Positions 7,728 through 47,775 of a DNA stretch of 48,453 nucleotides are shown piece by piece. The stretch spans positions 1 to 48,453 of the forward strand of contig JAQBQL010000017.1 in the NCBI GenBank assembly GCA_028287035.1. The letters are read 5' to 3'. Source of the stretch: Labilithrix sp. GTDB lineage: Bacteria > Myxococcota > Polyangia > Polyangiales > Polyangiaceae. Made by a program: the position numbers and the translations under genes. Each line of letters begins with the position of its first letter. The stretch's first letter is position 1. The notes under the pieces were generated by a model that saw nothing but the letters and a program-made list of their open reading frames with translations, did not search any database and was not told the origin of the DNA.

Positions 7728-8596
7728 GACCGGCGCTCCCACGGCAGCGGCAGATCCGGCTGCCCCTCGGGCCGGGACATCACGCGTGCGTGCCGGGCGA
7801 GCACGCCGAGCAGTACCACCCCGACGAGCAGCGCCGCGCCGCCGGTGAGCATCGTCCCCGCCTGTTCGTCCTTCGTCGCGGCGCGCGCACCGGCCAGGCT
7901 GCGCGAGGTGATGATGTCGCGGCCGTCGAGGCACGGCCGGAGCACGTTGGGGGCGTCGGGGACCGGACATCCGCGCACGGTGATGACGTCGCCGACCTTC
8001 GCGTCGCGTTCGACGTACTCCGGGTTGGAGGTGCTCGGCACGCGCCCGCGGCACCACTCCAGCATCGTCGCGGGCATCGACGCGTTGCCGTACAACGTGC
8101 CCGAGCTCTCCGGGAAGTCGACGGTCACGGAGCGCGGCTCCGCGAGCGCGAAACCGCTACGGAAGGCCGCCGTCTTGCCCTCGAAGCCGCTCACCGTGAA
8201 GCGCTCGTGCGTCTTCTGATCTTCGACGATGAGCCCGTCGACGCTGGTGATGAAGCAATCGGTCGAGAAGTGACGACTCTTGGGCGCCCCCGAGGCATGG
8301 CCGATGCGCGCGGCGAGGACCATGGGGAGCGCGTGGAGGGGCGAGAGGCGCGGCGCGGAGACGAGCGGCCCGACGACGACGCGCGCCGCCGTCTGACCCG
8401 CCTCGTCGCGCTCGCTGGCGCGTACCACGTCGACCACCCGGAAGGCGTCCCCTGCGCCGTTCAGCGCCAGGCACAGCGGCACCAGCGCGAGCAGGAAGCG
8501 CAGCGCGCCCCGCAGGACCTGCCGCGGGATGGACAGGCGGGCCGGAGCGCGGCTCACCGGGCGCGCGGGCTCCCGGAGCGAGTCGGAAGGGCGCAC
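7724..8596 (-). CDS. Two-TM membrane protein, probably a divergent partner of the GIDE-like protein
   Basis: The 290-residue protein begins with GTG at 8596. It has a basic N-terminus, a TM helix near residues 30-50 (FLLALVPLCLALNGAG), a central beta-rich extracytoplasmic or cytoplasmic domain, and a second TM near residue 255 (LLVGVVLLGVLA) with a short basic tail. The middle part reads EYVERDAKVGDVITVRGCPV then GRDIITSRSLAG. This resembles the C-terminal half of a GIDE domain, so it may be a diverged paralogue of the next gene; that is inference. Its stop overlaps the next start by four bases, so the two are translationally coupled and probably work together. Confidence 0.6.
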   Translation of the reverse strand: MRPSDSLREPARPVSRAPARLSIPRQVLRGALRFLLALVPLCLALNGAGDAFRVVDVVRASERDEAGQTAARVVVGPLVSAPRLSPLHALPMVLAARIGHASGAPKSRHFSTDCFITSVDGLIVEDQKTHERFTVSGFEGKTAAFRSGFALAEPRSVTVDFPESSGTLYGNASMPATMLEWCRGRVPSTSNPEYVERDAKVGDVITVRGCPVPDAPNVLRPCLDGRDIITSRSLAGARAATKDEQAGTMLTGGAALLVGVVLLGVLARHARVMSRPEGQPDLPLPWERRS

Positions 8597-8661
8597 GCCG
8601 CGATCCTATACCCATGCTGGTGACGGTGCCACCGAGCAAGGGACCGTTGTAAGGTCGTGGG

Positions 8662-9228
8662 GTGCAGCGCCCCGCCCGCCAGACCTTGCCTCTCGGGGAG
8701 GACTCGCACGAGGCGCTCAGGATCGCGGTCGTCGCCGACACGCACGGGCGGCCGCATCGCGCGGCGCTGCCACGGATCCAGGAGACGCGCCCGCACCACA
8801 TCCTCCACGCGGGGGACATCGGCGGCCGGTCCGTCCTCGAGGATCTCGCACGGATCGCCCCGGTGTCCGCCGTCCGCGGAAACATCGACGGGCGCGATCC
8901 CGAGACGCCCGACGCGCGCGCGCTGGTCCTGACGCGCGGGGACCAGGGGCTCCTCACGATCCTGCTCGTCCACATCGCGGTGAGCGGTCCGCGCCTTCGT
9001 GCCGACGCGGCGCGGCTCGCCAGGGCGGAGGGGGCCTCGATGGTGGTGTGCGGGCACTCCCACGTGCCGTTCATCGGACGCGATCGCGAGCTGTCGATCT
9101 TCAATCCGGGATCGATCGGGCCCCGCCGCTTCTCGCTGCCGATCGTCTTCGGCCTGCTCGAGGTTCAGGGGAAGGCCCTCTCCATGAAGCATATCGACGT
9201 CGAGACCGGCGCGCGCTGGGAGCCGTGA
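8662..9228 (+). CDS. YfcE/MJ0936-type metallophosphoesterase
   Basis: This 188-residue protein carries the five metal-binding blocks of calcineurin-like phosphodiesterases of the YfcE/MJ0936 group. They are Asp26-x-His28 (VVADTHG), Asp52 (HAGDIGG), Asn74 (RGNIDG), His104 (LVHIA) and His132/His134 (CGHSHVPF). NPGSIGPRR near the C-terminus is also typical. Such enzymes hydrolyse phosphodiesters such as cyclic nucleotides using two metal ions in the cytoplasm. It starts with GTG at 8662 and is the first of five genes that overlap by four bases each, so it is co-translated with the hybrid kinase. A signalling-nucleotide role is plausible but unproven. Confidence 0.85.
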   Translation: MQRPARQTLPLGEDSHEALRIAVVADTHGRPHRAALPRIQETRPHHILHAGDIGGRSVLEDLARIAPVSAVRGNIDGRDPETPDARALVLTRGDQGLLTILLVHIAVSGPRLRADAARLARAEGASMVVCGHSHVPFIGRDRELSIFNPGSIGPRRFSLPIVFGLLEVQGKALSMKHIDVETGARWEP

Positions 9229-12194
9229 GCGTGCACGACCCCATCTTCGACGGCGGCGGCGAGGCCGGCGCGCTGATGCGGAGCCTCGACTGGGCGTCGA
9301 CGCCGCTCGGGCCTCCCGCCACGTGGTCGAGCACGCTGCGGACCATCATCCGCACGATGCTCGCGTCGCGGTTCGCGATGCGCGTCCTCTGGGGGCCGGA
9401 GCTCGCGCTCCTCCACAACGACGCGTACCGGCCGGTGCTCGGCGCAGACAAGTACCCGCACGCCATGGGGCGGCCCACGGTCGAGAGCTTCGCCGAGGTC
9501 TGGCCGGTCGTCGGGCCGATGTTCGCGCGCGTCATGGACGGTGAGACGGTGGCGCTCGACAACGGGTCGCTGCCGCTCGTCCGCCATGGGTATCTCGAGG
9601 AGTGTTACTTCACGCTGTCCTACAGCCCGCTTCGTGACGACGAGGGCACCGTCCGCGGCGTGCTCGGCGTGGTCCACGAGACGACCGCCGAGGTCCTCGC
9701 CGAGCGACGCCTCGAGACGTTGCGCAGGCTCGCCGGCCGCGTCTCGGCGGCGCGCACCGCGGTCGAGGTGTGCCGGGCGACGACGGAGGTGTTCGCAGCG
9801 TGCGTCGACGTGCCGTTCGCGCTCCTCTTCCTCCGCGGGGCGCGGGGCGACGGCGCCGAGGCGGACCCCTTCGAGCTCGCCGCGTCGTCGGGGCTCGACG
9901 CCGATCAGGTGCCTCCCGGCCTGCGCGAGAGCGCATCGTGGCCGCTCCACGGCGACAAGGGGGAGGCGAGCGTGCACCGGGTCGACGACCTGCGGAGTCG
10001 CTTCGGCACGACGGTCACCGGCGCCTACCCGGAGCCCGTCGAGACGGCGCTCGTGCTGCCACTCGCGCGCGCGGGCGCCGCGGAGGTGAGCGGGTTCCTG
10101 GTCGTCGGGGTCAACCCGCGCAGGCGCCTCGATCCGGACTTCGAGACGTTCTTCGAGCTCGCGCGCGAGCACGTCACCGCAGCCCTCGCGAACGTGCGGG
10201 CCCTCGCAGCGGTCGAGGCCGAGCGCACGCGTCTCCAGGCCCTCTTCCTCGAGGCACCGGCAGCGATCGCGCTCCTGCGCGGCCCCGACCTCGTCGTCGA
10301 GCTCGTGAACGCTCGCTACTGCGCGATGGTCGGCGCGACGGAGGCCGAGCTACGCGGTCGCCCCTTGCGCGCGGGGCTCGCGTGGCTCGCGCAGGATCGT
10401 AGGCTGACCGTGGAGGAGGTGTACCGCACCGGCGAGCCCATCGAGGCGCGCGAAGCGCTGGGTCTCGAGCCGCGCGTGCCGGGCGGGGAACGCGCGCATC
10501 TCGATTGGATTGCACAGCCGACGCGCGACGAGCACGGGCGGGTCGACGGTGTGATGGTCTTCGCGATGGACGTGACCGCCCAGGTGCGCGCCCGGCGCGT
10601 CATCGAGGATTCACAGCGCTTCCTCGAAGGCGTCGTGAACCAGATCCCCTCCGGCATCAGCATCGTGGAGGCCCCGTCCGGAAAGACGCTGCTCTCGAAC
10701 GCGAGCGCCGAGACCATCTACGGCCACCCGCCGATCCACACCGCCTCCGTCGCGGATTTCGCGGCATACCACGCGGTGCGCGCCGACGGGCAGGCGGTCC
10801 CGGTGCGCGACTATCCGGTGGTACGCGCGCTCGCCGGCGAGCTCGTGCTGGAGGAGGAGGTCCTCTACGACCGGCCGGACGGCACGCGCCGCATCCTGCT
10901 CGTCAGCGCCTCTCCCGTGTACGACGCGTCCGGGAAGCGCGTCGCGGCCGTCTCGGCCTTCGTCGACATCACCGACCGCAAGCGCATGGAAGAGGCGCTC
11001 CGCGAGGCCAGGAACGTCGCGGAGTCGGCGAGCCGCGACAAGGACGAGTTCCTCGCCATCGTGAGCCACGAGCTGCGGAATCCGCTGAACGCGATGCTCG
11101 GGTGGACGCGCCTGCTCCGCGGGGGGACGCTCTCTGCGGATCGCGCGGCGCGCGCGCTCGAGACGATCGAGCGCAACGCGACGACCCAGGCACAGCTGAT
11201 CGAGGACCTCCTCGACGTGTCGCGCGTCATCGCGGGGAAGCTCCCGCTCGACGTCAGCACGGTCACGTTCGCGCGCGTCGTCGAGGCAGCGCTCGAGTCG
11301 GCAGCGCCGGCGATCGAGGCGAAGGGGCTGAAGCTCCGCGTCGTGCTCGACACCGACGCGACGCTGTCGGGCGACCCCGCGCGGCTCCAGCAGGTCGTCT
11401 GGAACCTGCTCACCAACGCCACCAAGTTCACGCCGAAGGGGGGCGCCATCCAGGTGACGCTCCGCCGTGACGATTCGCACGTGGAGCTCGCCGTCACGGA
11501 CAGCGGACAGGGAATCGACCCGAGCTTCCTCGAGCACGTCTTCGACCGCTTCAAGCAGGCTGACCCGTCGACGACGAAGGTCCACGGCGGCCTCGGCCTC
11601 GGGCTCAGCATCGCGAAGAACCTCGTCGAGATGCACGGCGGGGTGATCGAGGCGCGCAGCGACGGCCCCGGCAAGGGCGCGACCTTTCTCGTTCGCTTGC
11701 CGGTCGCCGCGATGCGGCGCTCTCCTGCGCCGACCGCGCCCCCCACGTCCCGGCCGCCGAGCAGCATCGTTCCCCTCGCCTCGCCGCCGGAGATGCAGGG
11801 GCTACGTGTCCTCGTCGTCGACGACGAGCCCGACGCCCGCGACGTCATGGGTGCGGTCCTCGCCGGGTGCGGGGTCGCCGTTCGCACCGCCGCGTCCGTC
11901 GCCGAGGCGCGGGCGGCGTTCGCCGTCGAGGTCCCGGACGTCCTCCTCTCCGACATCGGCATGCCCGTCGAGGACGGCTACATGCTCATCAAGTTCGTGC
12001 GATCGCTCGGCCGCGAGGACGGCGGCGCCACACCAGCGGCCTGCCTGACCGGCTACACGACGAGCGAAGATCGGCGACGCGCGCTCCTCGCCGGCTTCAA
12101 CATGCATCTCGCGAAGCCCGTCGAGCCGAGCGAGCTCATCGCGGTGGTGGCGAACCTGGGGCGGATGGCCCGCGCGCTGAAGGCGGCCCCTTGA
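9225..12194 (+). CDS. Hybrid sensor histidine kinase (PAS-GAF-PAS-PAS-HisKA-HATPase-REC)
   Basis: The start is GTG at 9225, overlapping the previous stop as GTGA (GTG at 9231 is the alternative); this gives 989 residues. No TM segment is visible, so it is a cytoplasmic sensor. In order it has: an N-terminal PAS-like domain (about 15-150, opening with LDWASTPLGP), a GAF domain (about 160-325), PAS (about 335-455), PAS (about 465-590), HisKA with phospho-His615 in VSHELRNPL, HATPase (about 720-840, with NLLTNATKF and GGLGLGLS), and a receiver with Asp910 in LLSDIGMP. It shares the N-terminal layout with the second kinase at 19037-21526. Its operon links it to an ECF42 sigma factor. Confidence 0.9.
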   Translation: MSVHDPIFDGGGEAGALMRSLDWASTPLGPPATWSSTLRTIIRTMLASRFAMRVLWGPELALLHNDAYRPVLGADKYPHAMGRPTVESFAEVWPVVGPMFARVMDGETVALDNGSLPLVRHGYLEECYFTLSYSPLRDDEGTVRGVLGVVHETTAEVLAERRLETLRRLAGRVSAARTAVEVCRATTEVFAACVDVPFALLFLRGARGDGAEADPFELAASSGLDADQVPPGLRESASWPLHGDKGEASVHRVDDLRSRFGTTVTGAYPEPVETALVLPLARAGAAEVSGFLVVGVNPRRRLDPDFETFFELAREHVTAALANVRALAAVEAERTRLQALFLEAPAAIALLRGPDLVVELVNARYCAMVGATEAELRGRPLRAGLAWLAQDRRLTVEEVYRTGEPIEAREALGLEPRVPGGERAHLDWIAQPTRDEHGRVDGVMVFAMDVTAQVRARRVIEDSQRFLEGVVNQIPSGISIVEAPSGKTLLSNASAETIYGHPPIHTASVADFAAYHAVRADGQAVPVRDYPVVRALAGELVLEEEVLYDRPDGTRRILLVSASPVYDASGKRVAAVSAFVDITDRKRMEEALREARNVAESASRDKDEFLAIVSHELRNPLNAMLGWTRLLRGGTLSADRAARALETIERNATTQAQLIEDLLDVSRVIAGKLPLDVSTVTFARVVEAALESAAPAIEAKGLKLRVVLDTDATLSGDPARLQQVVWNLLTNATKFTPKGGAIQVTLRRDDSHVELAVTDSGQGIDPSFLEHVFDRFKQADPSTTKVHGGLGLGLSIAKNLVEMHGGVIEARSDGPGKGATFLVRLPVAAMRRSPAPTAPPTSRPPSSIVPLASPPEMQGLRVLVVDDEPDARDVMGAVLAGCGVAVRTAASVAEARAAFAVEVPDVLLSDIGMPVEDGYMLIKFVRSLGREDGGATPAACLTGYTTSEDRRRALLAGFNMHLAKPVEPSELIAVVANLGRMARALKAAP

Positions 12195-14383: not shown

Positions 14384-16288
14384 ATGGACCGCTCCCTGCT
14401 CGAACAGCCGCTCGTCATGGCGACCGACCGCTTCGCGCCCGCGTGCACCGCGGACGAGGCGGCACGTCTGCGTCAGCTCTCCCCGGAGGCCTACTGGCTC
14501 GAGATCGCGAAGGAGCTCACGTGGGACCGCCCGCCGACCACCGCGCTCACCGGGACGCTCGGGGACTTCGAGTACTTCCCGGGCGCCACGATGAACGTGA
14601 GCGTCAACTGCCTCGACCGCTGGCCCGCCGAGCGCGTCGCGCTGCACTACGAGCGCGAGGACGGGCTCACGGAGACGTGGACCTTCGGACGCCTGACCGA
14701 CGCGGTGGCGCGCTTCGCCGCGGCCCTCGAGGACCTCGGCGTCACCAAGGGTGACCGCGTCGCCATCTACGCGAGCAACATCCCCGAGTCGTTCATCGCC
14801 ATCCACGCGTGCTACCGGATCGGCGCGATCTACTCGGTCATCTTCGCGGGGTTCAGCGCGTCGGCGGTGCGCGACCGCCTCGAGGACGCGCGGCCCAAGG
14901 TGGTGGTCGTCGCCGACGCAACGCTGCGCCGCGGTCGCGCCATCCCGCTGAAGACGACGTACGACGAGGCCGCCAAGGGCCTCGGCATCCCGCACGTGGT
15001 GGTCGCGCGGCGGGTCGACCACCGGCACCCGCTGCGCGACGGCGAGCACGACTTCGCGGAGCTCCTGGCGCGGACCACCCGCAAGGCGGCGCCGGTCTCC
15101 ATCGAGGCCAACGACCCGGGCTTCATCATCTACACGTCGGGCACGACCTCGAAGCCGAAGGGCCTCGTGCACTCGGGCGTCGGCTTCCTGGTCGGCGTGT
15201 ACGCGAACGTGAAGTGGTCGCTGCACCTCGAGCCGAGCGACGTCTACTGGTGCACGGCCGACGTCGGGTGGCTCACGTTCCCGATCTTCGCGCTGGTCGG
15301 CGGGCTCGCGCAGGGCGCGACGCACGTGATCTTCGAGGGCAGCATCGACACCCCAACCGCGGCGCGTCCCTACGAGCTCATCGCGAAGTACGCCGTGACG
15401 AAGATGTTCACCGCGCCGACCGCGCTCCGCATGATGCGGCGGGCCGGTGACCAGCTGCTCGAGGGCCACGACACGTCGCGCCTGTCGCTCGTCTCGCTGG
15501 TCGGCGAGCCGCTCGATCCGGACACGTGGTTCTGGACGCGTGACAAGCTGGGGCGCGGAGCGCTCTTCGTGAACAACACCTACGGCCAGACGGAGACGGG
15601 CAGCGCCTGGTCGAGCAGCATGGTCGGAGCCACGCCGACGCGCCCGGGAAGCTGCGGTCACACCCTCCCCGGCTACGTTCCGCGCGTGCTGCGGGACGAC
15701 GGGTCGGAGGCGGACGTCGGAGAGCTCGGCGCCCTCACGCTCGCGCAGCCGTTCCCGTGCCTCGCCCGCACCGTGTGGGGCGATCACGAGCGTTACGTGG
15801 CGACGTATCTCGCGCAGTTCCCCGGCCACTACCTCGCCTCGGATGCGGCGCTGTTCGACCAGGACGGTCAGCTGTGGGTCACGGGCCGCATCGATGACGT
15901 CATCAACGTGGCCGGCCACCGGCTCGGCACGATGGAGCTCGAGGCGGCGCTGCTCACCCACGCGGCAGTCTCCGAGGCGGCGGTCGTCACGCGCGAGGAC
16001 GAGGTGAAGGGCACCGTGCCCATTGCGTTCGTGGTGCCGCGCGCCGGCCATGCCGACAGCCCGGAGCTCCAGGCTGCGCTCGCCCAGGCGATCGTCGATG
16101 CGGTCGGCGCCATCGCGAGGCCGGCGCGCGTCGTGGTGGTGAGCACGGTGCCGCGCACGCGCAGCGGCAAGATCATGAGGCGCGTGCTCCGGGATCTCGT
16201 CGTTTCGGGGGTCGCGAGCGGTGACCTGACGAGCCTCGACAACCCCGATGCCATCGACGTCGTGAAGAAGCGCCTCGCCGAGCCGTGA
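14384..16288 (+). CDS. Acetyl-CoA-synthetase-like acyl-CoA synthetase (adenylate-forming)
   Basis: Starting at ATG 14384, this 634-residue enzyme is close in length and layout to acetyl-CoA synthetase. It has an N-terminal ACAS domain (YWLEIAKELTW, then FPGATMNVSVNCLDRW) and the P-loop YTSGTTSKPKG. The A5 region is NNTYGQTETG, the A7-A8 region TGRIDDVINVAGHRLGT, and the C-terminal catalytic lysine sits in RTRSGKIMRR. It activates a carboxylic acid with ATP and loads it on CoA. In acetate-specific enzymes the A5 region reads WWQTE, with a Trp closing the acyl pocket. Here Tyr400-Gly401 replaces the two Trp, which suggests a longer acyl substrate. It lies 59 bases after the ECF42 gene. Confidence 0.88.
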   Translation: MDRSLLEQPLVMATDRFAPACTADEAARLRQLSPEAYWLEIAKELTWDRPPTTALTGTLGDFEYFPGATMNVSVNCLDRWPAERVALHYEREDGLTETWTFGRLTDAVARFAAALEDLGVTKGDRVAIYASNIPESFIAIHACYRIGAIYSVIFAGFSASAVRDRLEDARPKVVVVADATLRRGRAIPLKTTYDEAAKGLGIPHVVVARRVDHRHPLRDGEHDFAELLARTTRKAAPVSIEANDPGFIIYTSGTTSKPKGLVHSGVGFLVGVYANVKWSLHLEPSDVYWCTADVGWLTFPIFALVGGLAQGATHVIFEGSIDTPTAARPYELIAKYAVTKMFTAPTALRMMRRAGDQLLEGHDTSRLSLVSLVGEPLDPDTWFWTRDKLGRGALFVNNTYGQTETGSAWSSSMVGATPTRPGSCGHTLPGYVPRVLRDDGSEADVGELGALTLAQPFPCLARTVWGDHERYVATYLAQFPGHYLASDAALFDQDGQLWVTGRIDDVINVAGHRLGTMELEAALLTHAAVSEAAVVTREDEVKGTVPIAFVVPRAGHADSPELQAALAQAIVDAVGAIARPARVVVVSTVPRTRSGKIMRRVLRDLVVSGVASGDLTSLDNPDAIDVVKKRLAEP

Positions 16289-16304
16289 GGGCGGCCGGGC
16301 GCGC

Positions 16305-16922
16305 TCAGCGCGTCTTCGCGCGGGAGCTCTTCTTCTTGGCGGGCGCCTTCGTCTTCGTCTTCGTCTTCGTGCCGCGCGCCAAGGAGGCGGTCTTCTTCTT
16401 GGCGGGCGCGCTCTTCTTCTTCGCGGCTGCCGTCTTCTTCTTCTTCAGCGGGGCGAGCATCGTGCCCCGGCACGTGGCGGCGCCGCAGCGGCACGCGAAG
16501 ATCTTCTCGGCCTCGCGCGTCTTGTCGTCGGGATCGCGCGTCAGGTTGTAGTCGTAGTTCAGCTCCTCGCCGACCGCGATGTCCCGGATGGCCTCGACCA
16601 TCGGCCGCTTGTCCTCGAGGACGACCTCGCAGTTGGGGTCGCACGAGTGGTTGATGAACCGCGAGTCGTTGCCGCCGACCGCGGCGTCGATGACGTGGCG
16701 CGAGTCGATCGTGAAGAGGAACGTGTGGTCGGGGTCGCTCGTCTTCTGCTCGTAGCGGCGGTCGGCCTCGGCGTTCGTGATGACCTCGCCGACGTACTCG
16801 CAGATGCGCTTGCCCTTCTTGATCGGGGCCGTCGCGAAGACGCCCGTGCCGTGCACCTTGGAGCGGCGCGCCTTGAAGATGGACGGCTTCGGGGACTTCT
16901 TGTTGGCGGTTTTCTTGGGCAC
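16305..16922 (-). CDS. SET-domain lysine methyltransferase with post-SET motif and Lys-rich tail
   Basis: This 205-residue protein has a full SET domain. It shows KVHGTGVFA (about 22-30), YVGEVI, the cofactor/pseudoknot motif [11 protein letters not shown] (Asn91-His92-Ser93-Cys94), GEELNYDY with catalytic-type Tyr123/Tyr125, and a post-SET zinc motif with Cys144, Cys146 and Cys151. Residues from about 160 to the end are Lys/Ala/Thr/Pro-rich ([13 protein letters not shown] and a run of alternating Thr-Lys), like histone H1 or bacterial H1-like tails. The N-terminus is also basic. The enzyme should methylate lysine on a protein using S-adenosylmethionine, and the tail may bind DNA. It follows the C39-like gene by 28 bases. 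Confidence 0.88.
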
Positions 16923-16950
16923 GGGATCACCGCTATACCCCCGAACCGCG

Positions 16951-17604
16951 TCAGCGGAGAAGCGTCGTTTTGTCGGTGCAGGCCACGGCCGGGTTGTGGA
17001 TGCCGTAGACGCTGTCCCACGCGGCGACGAGCTTCTTCATCGGGATGGCGTAGTAGCTGCCCCACGACATGACGATGACGACCTCGCGGTCGCCGGTCCC
17101 GCGGTGGCCCACCGCCGTGACCCAGTGCGACGAGAGACCCTCGGTGTTGAACCACATCATCACGGGGTGACCATTGTCGGTCTGATCGCGGAGGAACGCG
17201 GCGCCGTCCGCGGGGTGCTGCAGCGTGCACCCGAGCTCGGGGTGGAAGCGATCGAAGTACGACTCGATCTGCCGTCCCATCGTGCCGACGATCCAGTGGA
17301 CGCCGGCCGCGTCCGCCTCCTCCGGCGTGACGTCGTCCCAGTAGAGGAGCAGCGCGTTCGCCACCGCGGTCGGCCCGCACTTGCCACGCTCGTCGAACAT
17401 CCCCGTCGAGTCGGGCTGATCGTAGGGCTTCGGCATGCCCGCGGGCGTCGCGATGAGCCTCATGTCGCGATCGGCGAGCGGCGCGCTCTGCAGGCGGAGC
17501 GCGTCGCCGGCCTCGGCGCTCGCCGGCTCTGCTTCGTCGACGGGGGCCGCGCACGCCGAGGCCCCGAGGACCGTCATCACCGCACCGAGCAGCCAGGAAC
17601 GCAT
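16951..17604 (-). CDS. C39-like (papain-fold) lipoprotein
   Basis: The 217-residue protein starts with a signal peptide ending LGASAC (Cys18, a loose lipobox). The catalytic region resembles C39-like peptidases: Cys76 in [16 protein letters not shown] and His160 in SSHWVTAVG, the order and spacing of papain-fold Cys-His pairs. The usual third residue (Asp/Asn before the final strand) is not obvious; [14 protein letters not shown] occupies that place. It should be exported and may be a peptidase or an inactive relative. It precedes the SET gene by 28 bases in the same direction and is divergent from the YebC gene. Confidence 0.65.
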
Positions 17605-17751
17605 GCGATCGCTCGAGCACGCGGCGTGCCGACGCCTGTCACCCGCGATTCTGCGGCAAATGCATCATCGAGCGGGCCGCCTGGTGCGGAATTATCCCAC
17701 CTACATGGATCGTGCACCGGCGCCGCGGACTCTGCGCTAAGTGGCTGGCCC

Positions 17752-18450
17752 ATGGGCGCACAGTGGAAGCAGGCTCACCGCGAGGTCGCGGCGAACGCCA
17801 AGGGACGCATCTTCACGAAGCTCGCGAAGGAGATCATGGTCGCGGCGCGGGCCGGCGCCGATCCCAGCATGAACCCGCGCTTGCGGATGGCGGTCGACGC
17901 CGCGAAGAAGGCGTCGATGACGAAGGACACGCTCGAGCGCGCCATCAAGAAGGGCGCGGGGCTCCTCGACGAGCCCGTCAACTACGAGACCGTCACCTAC
18001 GAGGGCTTCGCTCCTCATCAGGTGCCCGTCATCGTCGAGTGCCTCACCGACAACCGGAACCGCACCTCGTCGAACGTGCGCGTGCTGTTCCGGAAGGGGC
18101 AGCTCGGTGCCCTCGGCTCCGTCTCGTGGGACTTCCACCGTGTCGGTCAGGTCGAGGCGTCGCCACCCGCCGGCGGTGCGGATCCCGACGAGGCCGCCAT
18201 CGAGTGCGGAGCCCAGGACCTCGAGGCCGGCGAGGACGGGGGAACCCGCTTCTTCACCGAGGCCGGCGACGTCGATACCGTCAGCAAGGCGCTCGAGGCG
18301 CGGAAGTGGACCGTCACCTCGGCGCAGCTGATCTGGAAGCCGAAGAACCCGGTCACCCTCGACGACGCGCAGCGGTCGGAGGTGGTGAGCTTCCTGTCGG
18401 CGATCGACGAGGACGACGACGTCCAGAACATCTATGTGGGCCTGGCCTGA
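17752..18450 (+). CDS. yebC: YebC/PmpR (TACO1) family protein
   Basis: Starting at ATG 17752 this is 232 residues, close to the 240-250 usual for YebC. The N-terminus [19 protein letters not shown], then [21 protein letters not shown] and [23 protein letters not shown] in pieces, follows the family's first domain. [23 protein letters not shown] and NRTSSNVR are its best conserved blocks. Members act as DNA-binding regulators in some bacteria and as translation factors that ease stalling at proline runs in others. The variant start MGAQWK resembles the short type found outside enterobacteria. It stands 22 bases before a cupredoxin lipoprotein. Confidence 0.93.
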
Positions 18451-19036: not shown

Positions 19037-21526
19037 TCACGTCTCGGCGGTGATCCCGGCGCGGTAACCGGCGAGCAGGGCGCCCAGGGTGTCGACGAGC
19101 ACGGGCTTCACGAGGTGGGCGTCGAAGCCCGCCTCGCGCGTGCGAGCCCGATCGGCATCCTGCCCGTAGCCGGTGACCGCGACGAGCTTGAGGACGTCGC
19201 CGCCCGGCGCGCTGCGAAGGCGGCCGGCGAGCTCGTAGCCGGTCATCACCGGGAGACCGATGTCGAGGAGCGCGACGTCCGGCGCGTAGCTCTCGTGGAG
19301 GCGCAGCGCCGCCGCGCCGTCGTACGCGACGCGGGTATCGTAGCCGAGCATCGCGAGAGCCTCGGCGAGTAGCTCCGCGGCGTCCTCGTTGTCGTCGACG
19401 ACGAGGACGCGGATCTTGCGTGCGCCGTCCTCCGGGGGCGTCGTCACCGGAGAGGCATCCTTCACGGGCACGACCGCATCCGAGGCGGGCAGCTCGATCG
19501 TGAAGGTGCTCCCGTGGCCGGGTCCGTCGCTCTCGACGCGAACCGATCCGCCGTGCTGGACGACGAGGTTCGAGACGATCGCGAGACCGAGCCCGAGGCC
19601 GCCCTGCGCGCGGTCCAGCGCCTGCTCCTCCTGCGCGAACGGCTCGAACACGCGCGGAAGCATGTCGGGCGCGATGCCGATGCCACTGTCCTTGACCGAG
19701 AGGAGCACGCGATCACCCGCACGGTGGGCGGCCACCCGGATCCGCCCGCCCGGCTCCGTGTACTTCGCGGCGTTGGTGAGCAGGTTCGAGATCACCTGCG
19801 CGAGCCGCGAGGGGTCGCCGTCGACGACGAGCCCGGCGCCCGGCACGTCGACCTCGAGATGGTGTCGCCGCTCCTCGACCAGCGGGCTCGCCGCCTCGAT
19901 GGCGACGGTCACGAGGTCCATCATCTCGACGGGCTGCCGCTTGAGCGAGACCTTCCCGCGCGTGATGCGTGACACGTCGAGCAGATCGTCGACGAGGCGG
20001 CGGATCTGCTCGACCTGGTGCTCGATGACCGTGCGCTCCTTGGCATTGGCGGCGTCGCCGCGGAGGCGCATCAGCTCGAGGGCGGTCGCGATCGGCGCGA
20101 GCGGGTTGCGGAGCTCGTGGCCGAGCATCGCGAAGAACTCGTCCTTCGCGCGGTTCGCGGCCTCGGCGTCGCGTCGGGCTCGCGCGAGCTCCGTCACGTC
20201 GAACACCACCACGATGATGGTCTCGGTCGCGCCGTCCTCGCCGGGAACGGGCTCGTACACGAAGTCGAAGAACCCCTCGCGCGTCGTGCCGTCACCCCCG
20301 TCGAGGACGATTCGCACGGCGTGTCCGACGAACGGCTCGCCGGTCCGATAAACCCGCTCGACGAGCTCGAAGATGCCCTGGCCGGTGATGTCCGGCAGGG
20401 CCTCGCGCAGGGTCAGGTTCAGCAGCGGGCGGTTGCCGGTGAGCGCGTGGTATTGCGGGTTCGCCACCTCGAAGACGTGCTCGGGCCCGCGGAGCACCGC
20501 GATGCCGACCGGCGCGTGCTCGAACAGCATGGCGACGCGGCGGGCGTTCGCCTCCTTGACCGCCTCCGCCTCGCGCCGGGCGTTCGCCTCGCGGACCCGC
20601 CACTCGGCCTCGAGCGCGTCGCGCCGGACCGCCGCGAGGCTGCTGCCCACCTCCCGCGCGACCTCGTCGAAGAAGGCCCGGTAGCTCGCGTCGAACCGCA
20701 GCCGCGGGCTGATCCCGAACAGCACCACGCCGGTGGCGGCGTCCCCGGAGGCGCGCCGCAACACGCCGACGTACGCCCGCCGGATGGGCTCGGGCCACGG
20801 CCCCGCGGCGAGGTCGATGGCCACCTCGCGGGCCGCGCCGCTCGCGAAGGCCTCGTGCAGGTCGGACGCCACCGAGGCGAGCTCGGCACCGCCTGCCGAT
20901 CCGGCGCGGAGACCTCCCGAGCCGAAGGCGTCCAGCCGTTCCTCGGCCTCGTTCCAGAGGTAGATCGCGAAGGCGGGAACGTCGGCGGGATTCGCGGAGA
21001 GCGCCGCGGCCGCCCGCGGGAGAACGTCGTCGCCTTGCGCGCCGCTCAGGAGCCGCAGGGTCTCGGTGCGTCGGTCGCGGAGCACCGCGCCCGTGTGCTC
21101 CGTCACCGGCTGGAAGATGCCTGCGATACGGCCCTCGTCGTCCCGCACGGGACTGAAGGAGAACGAGAAGTACGCCTCCTCGAGGAAGCCGTGACGTGCG
21201 ACCCAGATCGGCGCTCCAGGCGTGATCTCGACCACCCCACCACCTAGCACCTTCCGCATCTCCGGGTGGAGAACCGAATAGGTCTCCGGCCACGCGTCGC
21301 GATAGCTGCGCCCGAAGAACTCCGGGTGCCGCGGGCCCATGATGACGGCATAGCCGTCGTTGTAGATCTGGGTCAGCTCCGGCCCCCAGAACACGATGGC
21401 CGGGGTCGGCATCTCCAGGATCACGCGCACCAGGCCGACGAGGCTCTTCGGCCACGACGCGATATCGCCCAGCGGCGTCTCGCGCCAGTCGACGGCGCGG
21501 ACGAAGTCCCAGTCGATGCGAGCCAT
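19037..21526 (-). CDS. Hybrid sensor histidine kinase (PAS-GAF-PAS-HisKA-HATPase-REC)
   Basis: This 829-residue cytoplasmic kinase begins with the same PAS-like module as the first kinase (VDWRETPLGD, then VFWGPELTQIYND and PVRDDEGRIAGI). A GAF-like region follows (about 160-310), a short coiled coil rich in Ala/Glu/Arg (about 305-330), and PAS (about 330-445). HisKA carries phospho-His470 in LGHELRNPLAP. HATPase (about 570-690) has NLLTNAAKY and GGLGLGLA, and the receiver carries Asp755 in LLDIGLP. It starts 20 bases after the PEGA gene stop and so may be the third gene of the barrel-PEGA-kinase operon. No output protein is adjacent. Confidence 0.92.
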   Translation of the reverse strand: MARIDWDFVRAVDWRETPLGDIASWPKSLVGLVRVILEMPTPAIVFWGPELTQIYNDGYAVIMGPRHPEFFGRSYRDAWPETYSVLHPEMRKVLGGGVVEITPGAPIWVARHGFLEEAYFSFSFSPVRDDEGRIAGIFQPVTEHTGAVLRDRRTETLRLLSGAQGDDVLPRAAAALSANPADVPAFAIYLWNEAEERLDAFGSGGLRAGSAGGAELASVASDLHEAFASGAAREVAIDLAAGPWPEPIRRAYVGVLRRASGDAATGVVLFGISPRLRFDASYRAFFDEVAREVGSSLAAVRRDALEAEWRVREANARREAEAVKEANARRVAMLFEHAPVGIAVLRGPEHVFEVANPQYHALTGNRPLLNLTLREALPDITGQGIFELVERVYRTGEPFVGHAVRIVLDGGDGTTREGFFDFVYEPVPGEDGATETIIVVVFDVTELARARRDAEAANRAKDEFFAMLGHELRNPLAPIATALELMRLRGDAANAKERTVIEHQVEQIRRLVDDLLDVSRITRGKVSLKRQPVEMMDLVTVAIEAASPLVEERRHHLEVDVPGAGLVVDGDPSRLAQVISNLLTNAAKYTEPGGRIRVAAHRAGDRVLLSVKDSGIGIAPDMLPRVFEPFAQEEQALDRAQGGLGLGLAIVSNLVVQHGGSVRVESDGPGHGSTFTIELPASDAVVPVKDASPVTTPPEDGARKIRVLVVDDNEDAAELLAEALAMLGYDTRVAYDGAAALRLHESYAPDVALLDIGLPVMTGYELAGRLRSAPGGDVLKLVAVTGYGQDADRARTREAGFDAHLVKPVLVDTLGALLAGYRAGITAET

Positions 21527-41786: not shown

Positions 41787-44396
41787 TCAGGGGCGGGCGC
41801 TCTTCGCTCGCGGCGGCGCGTTCTTCACGTAGCGGTCGAACCAGCGGATCATCTCCGCCACGAGCTGCTCGTTCGACTCCATCGCGGAGTACCAGTGCGG
41901 CTCGTGTGGCAACATGACGAGGCGGGCTGTCCCGCCGTTCCCGCGGACCGCCTCGTAGAGCTTCGTCGCCTGGAGCGGCGTCGTGCCCGGGTTGGCGTCG
42001 TCGGCGCCGTGCATGATGAGGATGGGGAGCTTCAGCTTGTCGGCATAGAAGAACGGCGAGGCCTTCACGTAGACCGGCTGCGCCTCCCATACCGAGCGGC
42101 GTTCGTTCTGGAACCCGAACGGGGTGAGGGTCTTGTTGTACGAGCCGCTCGTCGCGACGCCGGCCCGGAAGAGATCGGTGTGGGCGAGCAGGTTCGCGGT
42201 CATCAGCGCGCCGTGGCTGTGGCCGGTGATGCCGATGCGCTCCGGGTCGGCGACGCCGATCTCGATTGCCTTGTCGACCGCCGCCTTCGCGTCGGCCACG
42301 AGCTGGTCGAGGTACGTGTCGTAGGCCTTCTTCGGATCGCCCACGATCGGGAAGCTCGCATTGTCGATGATGGCGTAGCCCGCGAGCAGGAGGAGCCGGT
42401 AATTGCGGAGTCGCGTGAACGTCTGCTCGGAGCCGCTCACCTGGCCGGCCTTCGACGGGTCGGCGAAGTCGAGCGGGTACGCGTAGAGGATGGCCGGCAC
42501 GCGCGTGCCCTCCTGGTAGTCGGGCGGCGTGTAGACGGTGAAGGAGAGGTCGGTCCCGTCCTTGCGCTTGTACTTCACGAGGCGCTTCTTGATCTTGCGC
42601 ACCACCGGCGTCGGATCCGGCAGGTGCGTGACCGGGCGCGCGGACGACGCGATGGCCGCCTCGCCGGTCGCGGGCGCCACCTTGTCGCCCAGCGTGCGGA
42701 GGTGGACGTTCGGCGGATCGGCGGGCGTCTGGTGCCACGTGAGGAACGTCCTGGTCGCCTCGTTACCGGCGAAGGCCAGGAACTGCTCGAGCGCCGTCCG
42801 TTCACTCCGGAAGAGCCGCTCGGCGCTGCGCGTCCTGAGGTCGAGCCGGTCGAGGAACGGGCGATCGCCCTCCGGCGAGGCGCCGTCGCCGGTCAGGAAG
42901 ATCGCGTCGCCCTCCTGACGGAGCACCCACTGGCCGTTCGGCAGGACGCGCATCACCGGGCGGCCCGGGTTGCGGTACTTCTCGTCGGTCGACAGGTCCC
43001 AGAGAACGCGCGGCTTCGCGGCGCGGTCGTCCACGTTGAACGTGGCGGCATGCTTCCAGTGCCGGTTCTCGTCGACCTCGCGGAGCACGGCGAGCTCCTT
43101 CTGCTCGCCCCACCAGATGCCGGCGTAACGCTGCTCGGTGCGGATCACCTCGGTGGCGGCGCCGTCGAAGGGCGCCTTGTGCATCATGACCTTGTCGCGC
43201 GCGGGCACCTTCGCCTTCCAGTCGCCGCCGTCGAGCGCCTCGGCCCAGAGGACGGTGGCGGGCTCGGTCGAGCGCCACTCGAAGTCGCGCGGCCCGACCG
43301 GCACGCCGTGGACGGGGACGCGGTCGGCGACGGGCAGCGAGGCGAGCGCGTGAACGGTCTTGCCGCTGCGGTCCCAGACGGTGACGTCATGGGCGAAGTG
43401 ATCGTAGGTGGTCACGTAGGAGTACGGCTTCTTGATCGCGGAGACGAGGACGTACCCGCCGTCCGGCGAGGGCTCGACGTCCGTGTAGAGGCCAACCTTG
43501 CCGATGCGCGTCACCGCGTTCGACGTCACGTCGACGAGCGCGAGCTGCGCCGCCCCGTAGTAGTCGAAGAGGTCCTCGTCGCCCTTGCTGGTGAGGGTGT
43601 CGCGCGTCTCGTACGTGCTGCTCTCGCCCTTCTCGCCGTTCGTCTCCTGGATGCTGGGGCCCACCGGGACGCTACGGCTCGAGGGCGGAGCGCCGGCGCC
43701 GTCGGGCACGAGCTTCACGAGGACCGTCTTCTGGTCGTTCGTCCACTGCACGCTGCTGCCGAACATCGGATTCAGGCGCACGCCGGGCACGGCATGCACC
43801 TGACCGGTCACCGCGTCGCCGACCCACAGCTCGACGGCGTCCTGCGAGGTGCTGCGGAACACGAAGCGCCGGCCGTCGGCCGACCAGATCGGGGTCTCGG
43901 CGCAGCCGCCCGCGGGGAGCGCGACGTGGATCTCCGCGCCGTCCGCCACCTTCGTGATCGTGAAGTCGCGCGCGCAGGCCACGATGCCGTAACCGGCCGG
44001 CGTGTCGTGGCGGCGACGGGTGCGGGGCTCGACGCGCACCCCCGCGAGGCGGAGGAAAGGCTCTGCCACGCGCGTCATCGGCGGATAGTCGACCCACGAG
44101 ACGAGCAGGATCGCGTCGCCGGTGGGGCTCACGATGGGCTGCGGCGGGGACGGGGCGTGCAGGACGTCGAGCACCGGCGCGGGCGGCTGGTCGTAGCCGG
44201 ACGGTACCTCGAGGGGGGGCGCCGGGACGCGGGCCGGCGTTGCCACCGCGGCGGCGCTCGCGACGGGCCCGGGCGGGCGCGCGGCAGGTGCCTGCGCAGG
44301 CGGGGTCTCGCACGCGGCGACGGCGGAGGCGACGAGCAGGGCGGCGGGAACACGGCTGCCGGAGAGGGCACGGACGCGACGGAGGGCGCGGAACAT
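41787..44396 (-). CDS. S9D prolyl-oligopeptidase-family lipoprotein (glutamyl-endopeptidase-like)
   Basis: Starting at ATG 44396, the 869-residue protein has a lipoprotein signal ending SAVAAC (Cys29) and a Pro/Ala linker. A large beta-propeller domain (about 75-600) with WSADGRRFVF-type blades follows, then an alpha/beta-hydrolase domain. The nucleophile is Ser727 in GHSHGALM, the acid Asp799 or Asp800 in HGADDAN, and the His in LPHEPHWYS (His834 or His831). YAYPLDFADPSKAGQVSGS is typical of the S9D group that includes chloroplast glutamyl endopeptidase. It probably degrades peptides at the cell envelope. The TPR gene lies 35 bases upstream. Confidence 0.9.
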   Translation of the reverse strand: MFRALRRVRALSGSRVPAALLVASAVAACETPPAQAPAARPPGPVASAAAVATPARVPAPPLEVPSGYDQPPAPVLDVLHAPSPPQPIVSPTGDAILLVSWVDYPPMTRVAEPFLRLAGVRVEPRTRRRHDTPAGYGIVACARDFTITKVADGAEIHVALPAGGCAETPIWSADGRRFVFRSTSQDAVELWVGDAVTGQVHAVPGVRLNPMFGSSVQWTNDQKTVLVKLVPDGAGAPPSSRSVPVGPSIQETNGEKGESSTYETRDTLTSKGDEDLFDYYGAAQLALVDVTSNAVTRIGKVGLYTDVEPSPDGGYVLVSAIKKPYSYVTTYDHFAHDVTVWDRSGKTVHALASLPVADRVPVHGVPVGPRDFEWRSTEPATVLWAEALDGGDWKAKVPARDKVMMHKAPFDGAATEVIRTEQRYAGIWWGEQKELAVLREVDENRHWKHAATFNVDDRAAKPRVLWDLSTDEKYRNPGRPVMRVLPNGQWVLRQEGDAIFLTGDGASPEGDRPFLDRLDLRTRSAERLFRSERTALEQFLAFAGNEATRTFLTWHQTPADPPNVHLRTLGDKVAPATGEAAIASSARPVTHLPDPTPVVRKIKKRLVKYKRKDGTDLSFTVYTPPDYQEGTRVPAILYAYPLDFADPSKAGQVSGSEQTFTRLRNYRLLLLAGYAIIDNASFPIVGDPKKAYDTYLDQLVADAKAAVDKAIEIGVADPERIGITGHSHGALMTANLLAHTDLFRAGVATSGSYNKTLTPFGFQNERRSVWEAQPVYVKASPFFYADKLKLPILIMHGADDANPGTTPLQATKLYEAVRGNGGTARLVMLPHEPHWYSAMESNEQLVAEMIRWFDRYVKNAPPRAKSARP

Positions 44397-44431
44397 GCGC
44401 GCCACTCTACCCCTTCTCGGGACCTCCGCGA

Positions 44432-45970
44432 TCAGCGCTCCTGCAGCACGTAGGCGTCGCCGTCGCGCTGCACCGCGCCGCCCAGCGCCTCGCCCTCCGC
44501 GGACGCGAGGAGCGCGTCGATCCGCGCGCGCGCCGCCGCGAGGTCGGGGAACGTCACGTCGGGCCAGACGTGCGAGGCGAGCTCCGCGGCGCCCACCGAG
44601 CGCGTCGGTCGTCCGCGCAGCAGCGACAGGAGCCGGCGCGTGTCGAGGCGGCGCGCCAGAGGATCGTTCTCGCCGTCGGGGCGGACCGATCGTACGTGCC
44701 GCGGCGGCGCAGGCTGCGACGCCGACGCACGCCCGACGACCTCGAGGCGCGTGCGGAGGATGCGTGCCGCGGTACGAGCATCGTCGAGGCGCTGCACGAG
44801 CGCGCGCTCCTGGCCGGCGCGCGGCGTGCTCACGTCGGCGAGGAGCGCGCGGGCCAGCGACTCCGCCCGTGCGCCGCCGCGTTCGAGGTTCACCATCGCC
44901 TCGAACATCGCGACCACCTGCACGTAGCCATGCCCGCGCGGCACGCGCCCCTTCGCGAACTTCACGCGGTCCTCCGCGGCGACGAGGTCCCCTGCCCGCG
45001 CATGCGCCGCCGCCTGCACGGCACCGAAGAACCCCTCGCCCACGCGGAAGCCGAGCTTCGAGGACTCGGCCACGGCGCGCGCGGCGAGCGAGAGCGCGCG
45101 CTCGACGCGGTCGTGCTCGAGATGGAGGATCGCCGAATAGCCCATGACGAGGGCACGCAGGCGCGGCGCGACCCCGGTCTCGCCGATCGCCAGCGCCTCG
45201 CCGTAGGCGTCGCGCGCCTCCTCGAAGCGCTGCGCCTCGAGGTGCCGGTACGCGAGGCCGGCGAGCGCGCGCATCTCGCCCACCGCGTCGCCGGCCTCCT
45301 TCGCGAGGGCGAGCGACTCCTCGAGCCGGGCCAGCGCCTCGCCCGAGCGGCCCAGTTGCTGGAGCACGTTGCTCTCGTCCTGCAGGGCGCTGACGAGCGC
45401 CTCGCGATCGCCGCTGGCCCGCGCGTGCGCGACGCTGCGCTCGTCCTCCACGACCGCCTCCTCGGTGCGGGCGAGCATCGCCAGGGTGTACGCGTGGCGC
45501 GAGGCGACGAACGCACGCGCGCCGGGAGAGCCGCCCGCCTCCTCCACGAGCGCGCTCGCGCGTTCGGCGTCGGCGAGCGCGTTCTCGGCTTCGCCGTGAT
45601 GGACCCGGATGCGCGCGCGCGCCGCGAGGCCGAGCGCCTTCCAGAGCGTCTCCACGGCGGGGTCGGCGAGGGCCGCACGCACCACGTCCTCGGCCCGTAC
45701 CCGCTCGATGGTGGTGGTCGGTCGCCGGTCCGAGAGCGCATCGATCGCGGCCACCACCCGGAGGCCTGCCGCGAGATCGGGGGCCTCCGCGCCGTCGCGT
45801 CGCGCCCCCTCCAGCACGCGCCCGAGGAGGCGCGGGTTCTCGGCGAGCTGCCCGAGGAGCACCGCGGCCTGCGCGTGACGGACCGGCGAAGGGATCGCCG
45901 CCTCCTCGCACAGCTGCAGGAGCTTCGGCAGGACGCGCACGCGGGCGTCGGACGGCGGCTGGTCGGACAA
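44432..45970 (-). CDS. TPR protein with degenerate C-terminal winged helix
   Basis: The 512-residue protein is mostly TPR-like helical repeats (about 100-370), for example EALARLEESLALAKEAGD and RFEEARDAYGEALAIGE. Near the C-terminus, LARRLDTRRLLSLLRGRPTR then VGAAELASHVWPDV and RARIDALLAS with DGDAYVLQER follow the pattern of an OmpR/BTAD-type winged helix. The order, TPR first and DNA-binding module last, is opposite to SARP regulators. It may be a regulator or a protein-interaction scaffold; no signal peptide is present. It heads the minus-strand operon ending in recQ and is divergent from the PolX-like gene 74 bases away. Confidence 0.72.
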   Translation of the reverse strand: MSDQPPSDARVRVLPKLLQLCEEAAIPSPVRHAQAAVLLGQLAENPRLLGRVLEGARRDGAEAPDLAAGLRVVAAIDALSDRRPTTTIERVRAEDVVRAALADPAVETLWKALGLAARARIRVHHGEAENALADAERASALVEEAGGSPGARAFVASRHAYTLAMLARTEEAVVEDERSVAHARASGDREALVSALQDESNVLQQLGRSGEALARLEESLALAKEAGDAVGEMRALAGLAYRHLEAQRFEEARDAYGEALAIGETGVAPRLRALVMGYSAILHLEHDRVERALSLAARAVAESSKLGFRVGEGFFGAVQAAAHARAGDLVAAEDRVKFAKGRVPRGHGYVQVVAMFEAMVNLERGGARAESLARALLADVSTPRAGQERALVQRLDDARTAARILRTRLEVVGRASASQPAPPRHVRSVRPDGENDPLARRLDTRRLLSLLRGRPTRSVGAAELASHVWPDVTFPDLAAARARIDALLASAEGEALGGAVQRDGDAYVLQER

Positions 45971-46044
45971 CGGCTCTCCGTTTCCGAGCGTAGCAGCTCC
46001 GGGCGGCGCCGGCGGTCCGGCACGCGGAGTGCAACACTGGTGGC

Positions 46045-47775
46045 ATGGACAAGGCTGCCGTCGTCGCCGCGCTGCGCGAGATCGCCGCGCTCCTCGCGCT
46101 CGAGGGCGCCAGCAAGTTCAAGGTGCGTGCCTTCGAGAAGGGGGCGAGCTCGCTCGAGGCGACGCCGCAGTCGCTGCCGCAGCTCGTGACCGAGAAGCGC
46201 CTGCTCGAGCTGCCCGGCATCGGCGCCGCGCTGGCGCACCAGATCCAGGAGCTCCACGACACCGGCAGCTCGGCCCTGCTCGACTCGCTACGAACGGGGC
46301 TGCCGAGCGGCGTCATCGAGCTCTCGCAGGTGGGCGGCATCGGGCTCCATGCGCTGAAGATGCTGCACGAGGAGCACGGCATCGCGACGCTCGACGACCT
46401 GAAGGCGGCCATCGACGAGGGCCGCCTCCAGACGGTGCGCGGGTTCGGCGACAAGCGCGCCGCGAAGATCCGGAAGGCGATCGAGCGGTACGAGACCGTG
46501 CCGCCGGCGATCGCCCTCGCCGAGGGGCTCGACAAGGCGGACAGCCTCGCCGCGGAGCTGAGCGAGCTTCCCGACGTCCTCTCCGCGCACCTCGCGGGCA
46601 CGGTGCGGCGGTTCCACGAGGTGTCGACGGAGCTCGCCTTCGTGCTCGAGACCGACGCGCCCGACGCCGTGCTCGAGCGGCTCGGCTCGCTGCCGCGGGT
46701 CGGCTCGGTGCTCGAGGAGCAGCCCGGCGAGCGCCTGCTCCGCCTGGCCGACGGCACGCGGGTGCGCGTCGTCACCGCGAGCCCGGACGCGCTCGGCGCC
46801 GTGCTCGTCCACCGGACGGCGACCGACCTCCACTGGGCCAAGCTCGCCGAGCGCGCCGAGGAGAAGGGCCTCAGCCTCGGCACCCGCGGCCTGACGCGGA
46901 ACGGCGCCAGCGTGGTGACGCACGCGGAGTCGGACCTCTATGCGCGTCTCGCGCTGTCGGCCGTGCCGCCCGAGCTCCGCGAGGACGTGGGCGAGGTGGA
47001 GGAGGCGGCCCTCGAGCCTCACCGCGCGATCGACCTCGTCGAGGCCTCGGATATCCAGGGATTCGTTCATTGCCATACGACGTGGTCGGACGGTAATGCG
47101 GATATCGAGACGATGGCGCGCGCCGCCGAGGCCCGCGGGGCGAGGTTCATCACCATCACCGATCATTCCCCGGCCGCCCACTACGCGGGCGGGCTCGACA
47201 TCGAACGACTCAAGCGGCAGTGGGACGAGATCGCCGAGGTCCAGGAGCGCGTGAAGATCCGCATCCTGCGCGGCAGCGAGGTCGACATCCTGGCCGACGG
47301 AGCCCTCGACCTGCCGCTCGCGATCCTCGAGCAGCTGGACGTCGTCATCGCGAGCATCCACGCGCGGCACCGCCAGGACGAGGCGGCGATGACCGACCGC
47401 GTCCTCCGCGCGATGCGCCACCCGCTCTTCAAGATCTGGGGCCATCCCCTCGGGCGCCTCGTCACGAGCCGGCCGCCCATACCGCTCCGCATGGAGGAGG
47501 TACTCGACGCCATCGCCGAGTCGAACGCGGCGATCGAGATCAGCGGGGACCCGGCCCGCCTCGACCTCGAGCCCCGCTGGGCACGGGCCGCGCGCCAGCG
47601 AGGGATCCGCTTCGTGCTCGGCGTCGACGCGCATTCCGTCCGCGGGTTCGACTACCTGCGTTACGCAGTGGGGCTGGCGCGCCGGGCGGGGCTCCGCAAG
47701 GGCGACGTGCTGAACGCCCTGCCGGCCGACGCGTTCGTGAACGCGGTCCGGCCGCGCGCGCGCGCCGCCGCCTGA
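46045..47775 (+). CDS. polX: PolX-family protein: HhH and degenerate polymerase domain with intact PHP nuclease domain
   Basis: The 576-residue protein matches bacterial PolX in length and order: helix-hairpin-helix N-domain (about 1-60, LLELPGIGAALAHQIQEL), thumb/fingers HhH (LSQVGGIGLHALKML), palm remnant (about 170-300) and PHP domain (about 335-570). PHP metal ligands are present: HCHTTWSDG, ITDHS, GSEVDI, ASIHARH, GHPLG and GVDAHS. In the palm, where active PolX has GS-RR-x-E-x-x-DID, it reads GTVRRFHEVSTELAFVL; Thr195-Glu196-Leu197 replaces the Asp pair, and the third Asp place is Arg239. It is therefore likely a nuclease or DNA-end binding protein, not a polymerase. Confidence 0.9.
   Translation: MDKAAVVAALREIAALLALEGASKFKVRAFEKGASSLEATPQSLPQLVTEKRLLELPGIGAALAHQIQELHDTGSSALLDSLRTGLPSGVIELSQVGGIGLHALKMLHEEHGIATLDDLKAAIDEGRLQTVRGFGDKRAAKIRKAIERYETVPPAIALAEGLDKADSLAAELSELPDVLSAHLAGTVRRFHEVSTELAFVLETDAPDAVLERLGSLPRVGSVLEEQPGERLLRLADGTRVRVVTASPDALGAVLVHRTATDLHWAKLAERAEEKGLSLGTRGLTRNGASVVTHAESDLYARLALSAVPPELREDVGEVEEAALEPHRAIDLVEASDIQGFVHCHTTWSDGNADIETMARAAEARGARFITITDHSPAAHYAGGLDIERLKRQWDEIAEVQERVKIRILRGSEVDILADGALDLPLAILEQLDVVIASIHARHRQDEAAMTDRVLRAMRHPLFKIWGHPLGRLVTSRPPIPLRMEEVLDAIAESNAAIEISGDPARLDLEPRWARAARQRGIRFVLGVDAHSVRGFDYLRYAVGLARRAGLRKGDVLNALPADAFVNAVRPRARAAA

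Follow-up and report, generated by a model that had tools for sequence, protein, structure and literature searches.

The window examined here, a stretch of 48,453 nucleotides from Labilithrix sp. (contig JAQBQL010000017.1), carries on its minus strand a gene for a SET-domain protein lysine methyltransferase (16305..16922), found in the open reading frame (ORF) list and encoding 205 amino acids from a GTG start. As judged from the sequence and a structural model, the protein is a bacterial relative of the histone-methylating enzymes with an intact core and a basic tail predicted to be disordered, and such tails appear to be maintained by charge, not by sequence, in many related SET enzymes of bacteria. 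We give about an even chance to the reading that this S-adenosylmethionine (AdoMet)-dependent lysine methyltransferase is tethered to nucleic acid by its tail and acts on DNA-bound proteins and probably on itself.

The SET domain (residues 25-126, 16545..16850, minus strand) was delimited by Pfam, residue counts and alignment to Set1, NSD2 and MLL1, and matched the full PF00856 profile (1-105 of 105) with 97.3 bits against a curated cut-off of 22.4. The AdoMet motif H24-G-x-G27 lies at the start of the domain, NHSC occupies residues 91-94, and Y123 and Y125 were assigned by motif as the Phe/Tyr switch and the catalytic tyrosine. N91 and H92 align with the NH of Set1, and the AdoMet and catalytic motifs were also aligned to MLL1. 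The post-SET element C-x-C-x4-C-R-G (residues 144-153, 16464..16493, minus strand) was located by cysteine conservation in 146 proteins, comprising the window protein and 145 relatives; C144, C146 and C151 together with C94 are predicted zinc ligands, a role that we assume from SET proteins generally. Residues G25, G27, N91, H92, C94, Y123, Y125, C146 and C151 were invariant in all 146 proteins, while C144 was kept in 145 and S93 in 134. The initial annotation had described the SET and post-SET elements as complete, subject to the AdoMet-binding residues surviving structural alignment; the SET fold was recovered, the listed residues stand where they had been placed, and the motifs are kept both on alignment and throughout the 146 proteins. 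The catalytic core is thus predicted to be intact, and we infer that the enzyme is active. Changing the Set1 tyrosine equivalent to Y125 to alanine is reported to kill Set1 in yeast (PMC3585878). The same source hypothesises that a tyrosine at the Phe/Tyr switch prevents higher-order methylation, with Set1 itself an exception, and because the rule is a hypothesis that Set1 breaks, a mono- or dimethyl product is only weakly predicted for the window protein.

Fifteen residues precede the first core strand and form a short basic extension (residues 1-15, 16878..16922, minus strand, net charge +5 by charge count), which in the 114 of 120 proteins where it was measurable was 8-66 amino acids long. 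The GTG start is supported because several close homologues likewise open with (M/V)-P-K. No AWS or pre-SET domain was found, SET being the only domain of the window protein to pass its Pfam cut-off, and at E<=10 Pfam returned nothing besides SET and a chance-level VIT match.

The polybasic tail (residues 154-205, 52 amino acids, 16308..16463, minus strand) was defined by composition and model and starts with a conserved T-M-L. It holds 18 lysines and a net charge of +21, against a net charge of -2 for residues 16-153, which bears out the long lysine-rich tail proposed earlier. In the window's other predicted genes (34 genes, 14,944 amino acids) lysine accounts for 2.2% of residues, and the binomial probability of the tail's lysine count was approximately 3e-17 relative to this background and 2e-9 relative to the protein's own core. 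All 18 lysines are encoded by AAG in a window of approximately 72% GC. The short repeat said to code an alternating Thr-Lys run was recovered by Tandem Repeats Finder as a perfect 6-bp unit in four copies (16347..16370, minus strand). In the predicted structure neither helix nor strand occurs beyond residue 157, and the predicted local distance difference test score (pLDDT) was 45-73 per ten-residue block from residue 161 onward. The tail is therefore basic and predicted to be without structure, its Lys/Ala/Pro/Thr-rich composition lacking regular elements.

So that the tail itself could not drive the ranking, the search for relatives used a query restricted to residues 16-156. At least 7,976 of the 7,999 scored candidates passed, and the best 120, one of which was the window's own protein, were considered further; the other 119 were 60-72% identical over residues 16-156. 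All of the best 120 proteins extended at least 12 residues past post-SET. Tails of at least 20 residues with at least 25% K/R were present in 112 of the 119 relatives and tails of at least 40 residues in 57, many relatives lying on short metagenome contigs where some tail ends may be cut. Tail length dropped somewhat with rank among the best 120 (r = -0.33). The tail is thus widespread in the nearest relatives, and its absence from all orthologues, which had been named as grounds for abandoning the idea, is not what was found.

For the 116 proteins whose tails reached at least 30 residues, 400 pairs drawn at random had median identities of 66% for cores, 39% for tails and 36% for shuffled tails. 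Only the first tail residues were conserved, mostly T/S-M-L and often then Pro; beyond them neither a conserved lysine position nor a conserved motif was apparent, and some relatives had Arg-rich tails with few lysines. A short HAHGR motif was shared by 5 of the 146 proteins (P0084, P0093, P0102, P0138 and P0145), close to the C-terminus of tails that are dissimilar in other respects. Under a strict definition (last 45 amino acids with Lys >=22% and K/R/A/P/T/S/G/V >=85%) such a tail was found in 58 of 145 relatives versus a single gene, itself a SET gene, of the 597 predicted in loci above 60% GC. A relaxed definition gave 103 of 145 relatives versus 22 of 995 predicted genes, 13 of which matched the window SET core by BLAST; in both comparisons the background genes were called by a simple longest-ORF heuristic, on loci drawn mostly from groups other than the window's. 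Charge that is kept while sequence is free is the pattern expected of an electrostatic tether.

Named relatives spanned many environmental bacterial groups, and tail lengths were compared by group in named-genome loci that a SET similarity search had retrieved. Lengths were mostly 7-9 amino acids in xanthomonads, 7 to 59 in Burkholderiales and other Betaproteobacteria, 7 to 35 in Gemmatimonadota, approximately 21-47 and basic in Acidobacteriota, and mostly 20-59 in Verrucomicrobiota. A tree of 147 rows and 140 columns, in which many forks were unresolved, was built from every second protein (73 of 146) and 74 of 81 loci, seven loci being left off as their cores were not cleanly cut. The window fell within a clade of 76 rows (Shimodaira-Hasegawa-like approximate likelihood ratio test, SH-aLRT, 96). 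Long basic tails were carried by 71 of these 76 rows, the window included, versus 31 of the 71 others, a comparison partly ascertained since the clade, made up of the 73 protein rows and L001-L003, is also the set selected by the protein searches. The long or short state of the tail changed at least 19 times on this tree.

The initial annotation had held SET proteins to be rare in bacteria, a view that the counts do not bear out. Among 150 genomes of one phylum, 26 SET matches were found in 21 genomes, one of the 21 being the centre genome, which had been selected because it has a SET gene, and by 2007 SET genes had been reported in 83 species among 390 bacterial genomes (PMC3980110). Eight matches in the phylum reached at least 84 bits, three with long basic tails and five with short ones, as measured by a simple motif scan that recovered a SET frame in only 11 of the 26 loci. 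Two of the three long-tailed SET proteins (L098 and L099, from two large genomes) had Lys/Ala-rich tails of 53-56 amino acids that did not start with T-M-L, and basic tails may therefore have arisen more than once.

On a 41-row tree the window was placed among bacterial rows (support 98/99), apart from the four eukaryotic cores. Forcing the window together with the four eukaryotic cores was rejected by the approximately unbiased test (p-AU 0.038), and a eukaryotic transfer of the window protein is rejected as far as these four cores, in a tree without chlamydial sequences, represent it. The placement agrees with an earlier conclusion that SET genes of bacteria have a history of their own (PMC3980110). 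A mobile or phage origin was also rejected, with 0 matches in 50,697 phage records. Eleven relatives were found on viral contigs, at 27-35% identity, and 50 plasmid records carried relatives, each less than 60% identical, 44 of which belonged to Paraburkholderia, Caballeronia or Burkholderia.

The tail had also been described as H1-like. Bacterial H1-like proteins of the Hc1, HC2 and AlgP type are rich in Lys, Ala, Pro and Thr and are encoded by short repeats, and the window tail shares this make-up; it differs from them as an appendage of an enzyme that matches neither PF07432 nor PF07382. Of the proposed profile searches the SET part succeeded, while Hc1 (PF07432), HC2 (PF07382) and linker histone gave no match at E<=10 to the tail or the whole window protein and none at E<=1 among the 40 rows of alignment A1, in searches whose sensitivity is lowered by HMMER filters and low-complexity correction. 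Homology to H1 proteins was thus rejected by profile and the likeness is retained as one of composition only.

In the mechanism that we propose, a Set1/MLL-type catalytic core with its post-SET zinc cluster would act as an AdoMet-dependent protein lysine methyltransferase from which the disordered polybasic tail leaves right beside the active site. The tail would bind nucleic acid with no sequence preference and so keep the enzyme at the nucleoid, placing it to methylate lysines of HU- or H1-like basic proteins bound to DNA; the enzyme would probably methylate its own lysine-rich tail as well. DNA binding, substrate and automethylation are what we infer for the window protein. That the basic tail is common to the nearest relatives suggests that the enzyme works on the bacterium's own DNA-bound proteins, and nucleoid proteins are well-founded candidate targets. 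Other SET proteins offer a precedent, partly contested, for both nucleoid-protein and self methylation. The more general proposition, that free-living bacteria possess a widespread, dedicated lysine-methylation writer parked on the nucleoid by its tail in the manner of NSD and marking nucleoid proteins and itself, is put forward tentatively and is on balance doubtful. No work on tailed SET enzymes of free-living bacteria was found in titles and the starts of abstracts among the papers listed, which for the larger result sets were the top rows, and this is no proof of absence.

Several observations weigh against a nucleoid-tethered enzyme. Many relatives with an equally intact core, most xanthomonads among them, are almost tail-less, and the tail is therefore unnecessary for the basic function of the family. 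No family-wide conserved neighbour was found among the named-genome loci L001-L080 and nine window genes. Hc1 was found in none of the 150 genomes sampled from the phylum, 21 of them carrying SET, and the association of SET with HC2 was weak (10 of 21 versus 34 of 129, p 0.07, kinship ignored). HC2 matches were found in 44 of the 150 genomes at E<=0.001; only 11 were over the curated cut-off and many sit within long, unrelated-looking frames. Above that cut-off the association fell to 3 of 21 versus 8 of 129 (p 0.19), and for the eight strongest SET matches to 2 of 8 versus 9 of 142 (p 0.11). Without the cut-off these eight gave 6 of 8 versus 38 of 142 (p 0.008), the group being chosen afterwards and kinship ignored, and the association is at best suggestive and was not counted as evidence. 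Finally, cpnSET is reported to bind Hc1 and Hc2 and to methylate Hc1 (PMC3980110), but C. trachomatis NUE is reported not to have methylated Hc1 (PMC2904774), and the chlamydial precedent is therefore contested.

The same tail could serve other ends. It might be an autoregulatory substrate whose own lysines are methylated in cis or between molecules, tuning activity or oligomerisation, with nucleic-acid binding of minor importance. NUE automethylates, likely at K209 and/or K210, adjacent lysines in its C-terminal basic stretch whose mutation reduces both automethylation and activity on histones (PMC2904774), and a 52-residue tail starting directly behind post-SET beside the active site could reach back to it. 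A dedicated site might be expected to be conserved, but no conserved tail lysine was seen, and without a fixed lysine context a specific automethylation site is less likely; the Arg-rich, Lys-poor tails of some relatives also argue against autoregulation, which we regard as doubtful. It is unlikely, too, that codon slippage has simply lengthened a mostly neutral, low-complexity tail, its basic disordered end persisting because it is harmless or an aid to solubility. The perfect short repeats, an identity barely above that of shuffled tails and the repeated changes between long and short states are what such growth would leave, yet drift is not expected to keep positive charge, and charge and composition were kept in 112 of the 119 best relatives against a window background of 2.2% Lys, with comparable tails very rare elsewhere.

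Polybasic tails do not discriminate among polyanions, and the tail might bind RNA, the ribosome or polyphosphate while the enzyme methylates translation or granule proteins. The H1-like AlgP of Pseudomonas is reported to affect the spacing of polyphosphate granules (PMC9239181), but the loci compared held no family-wide neighbour pointing to translation or polyphosphate, and we consider this quite improbable. Least credible is a secreted nucleomodulin, in which the tail would be a nuclear localisation signal and the enzyme would modify the histones of a eukaryotic host or prey, as SET proteins of some intracellular bacteria are reported to do (PMC3980110, PMC2904774). The sole NCBIfam match at E<=0.1 was indeed the LegAS4/AnkI effector model (NF043024), but it reached 57.1 bits against a cut-off of 550 and covered the SET part only (profile 32-142 of 439). 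The bacterial placement of the window clade, the rejected grouping with the four eukaryotic cores and the many environmental groups among the named relatives make this reading very hard to sustain.

Upstream of the SET start by 28 bp is a C39-peptidase-like gene (16951..17604, minus strand; PF13529, E 0.008, below cut-off), whose protein shows a Cys-Gly-Pro-Thr motif and, by eye, a lipoprotein-type signal and which is possibly co-transcribed with the SET gene. A scan of 16200-17800 gave 0 promoter-like sites and two terminator-like sites versus 0.8 expected. Elsewhere, 11 betaproteobacterial loci (L009, L012, L014, L015, L018, L022, L023, L024, L027, L028 and L034) shared one gene family no more than approximately 220 bp from the SET match, with 10 of the 11 copies on the opposite strand. 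Seven Acidobacteriota loci (L056, L057, L059, L063, L067, L075 and L078) shared another family, which lies on the same strand as the SET gene, 53 to approximately 3,900 bp downstream. These families were identified only in L009 and L024, as DNA topoisomerase III (topB) with a Lys-rich C-terminus in both, and in L056, as dnaX; both associations are lineage-specific.

In the remainder of the window, a YebC/TACO1-family protein (17752-18450, plus strand) was 34-54% identical to YebC matches in 13 genomes, and two PAS-containing hybrid histidine kinases with receiver domains flank the SET gene (8529-12194, plus strand; 19037-21526, minus strand). An ORF of 1,698 amino acids (41787-46883, minus strand) was matched by Pfam only in a C-terminal hydrolase (prolyl oligopeptidase, residues 1526-1688), and its long front part may be partly spurious. 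Rfam gave nothing at gathering score across the window.

If the tethered enzyme is real, a layer of protein methylation would be added to the regulation of the bacterial chromosome, and a large bacterial SET group with a charge-kept tail would provide a direct handle on which proteins lose methylation without the tail or the gene. Compared with known systems, the window protein shares its core, motifs and post-SET with the bacterial proteins annotated as SET domain-containing protein-lysine N-methyltransferase (PF00856), but many of those, in xanthomonads and some Burkholderiales, stop approximately 7 amino acids past post-SET. Its core is approximately 40% identical to the catalytic SET domains of yeast Set1/COMPASS and MLL1. 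Chlamydial NUE/cpnSET is likewise a stand-alone bacterial SET protein with a basic C-terminus; NUE differs in being an effector that an intracellular pathogen exports by type III secretion, and its described basic stretch has six residues versus 52 here. The order SET, post-SET and basic extension is common to the window protein and NSD1/2/3, an extension of the NSD type lying directly behind post-SET in both. NSD2 reportedly needs this extension to methylate nucleosomes efficiently, and contacts of the extension with DNA phosphates are expected (PMC8593083). The window protein differs from NSD in having no AWS or pre-SET, stands apart from NSD2 on the tree, and cannot have the nucleosome as its natural substrate. 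The shared layout suggests a common solution, perhaps independently reached, for bringing a lysine methyltransferase to DNA.
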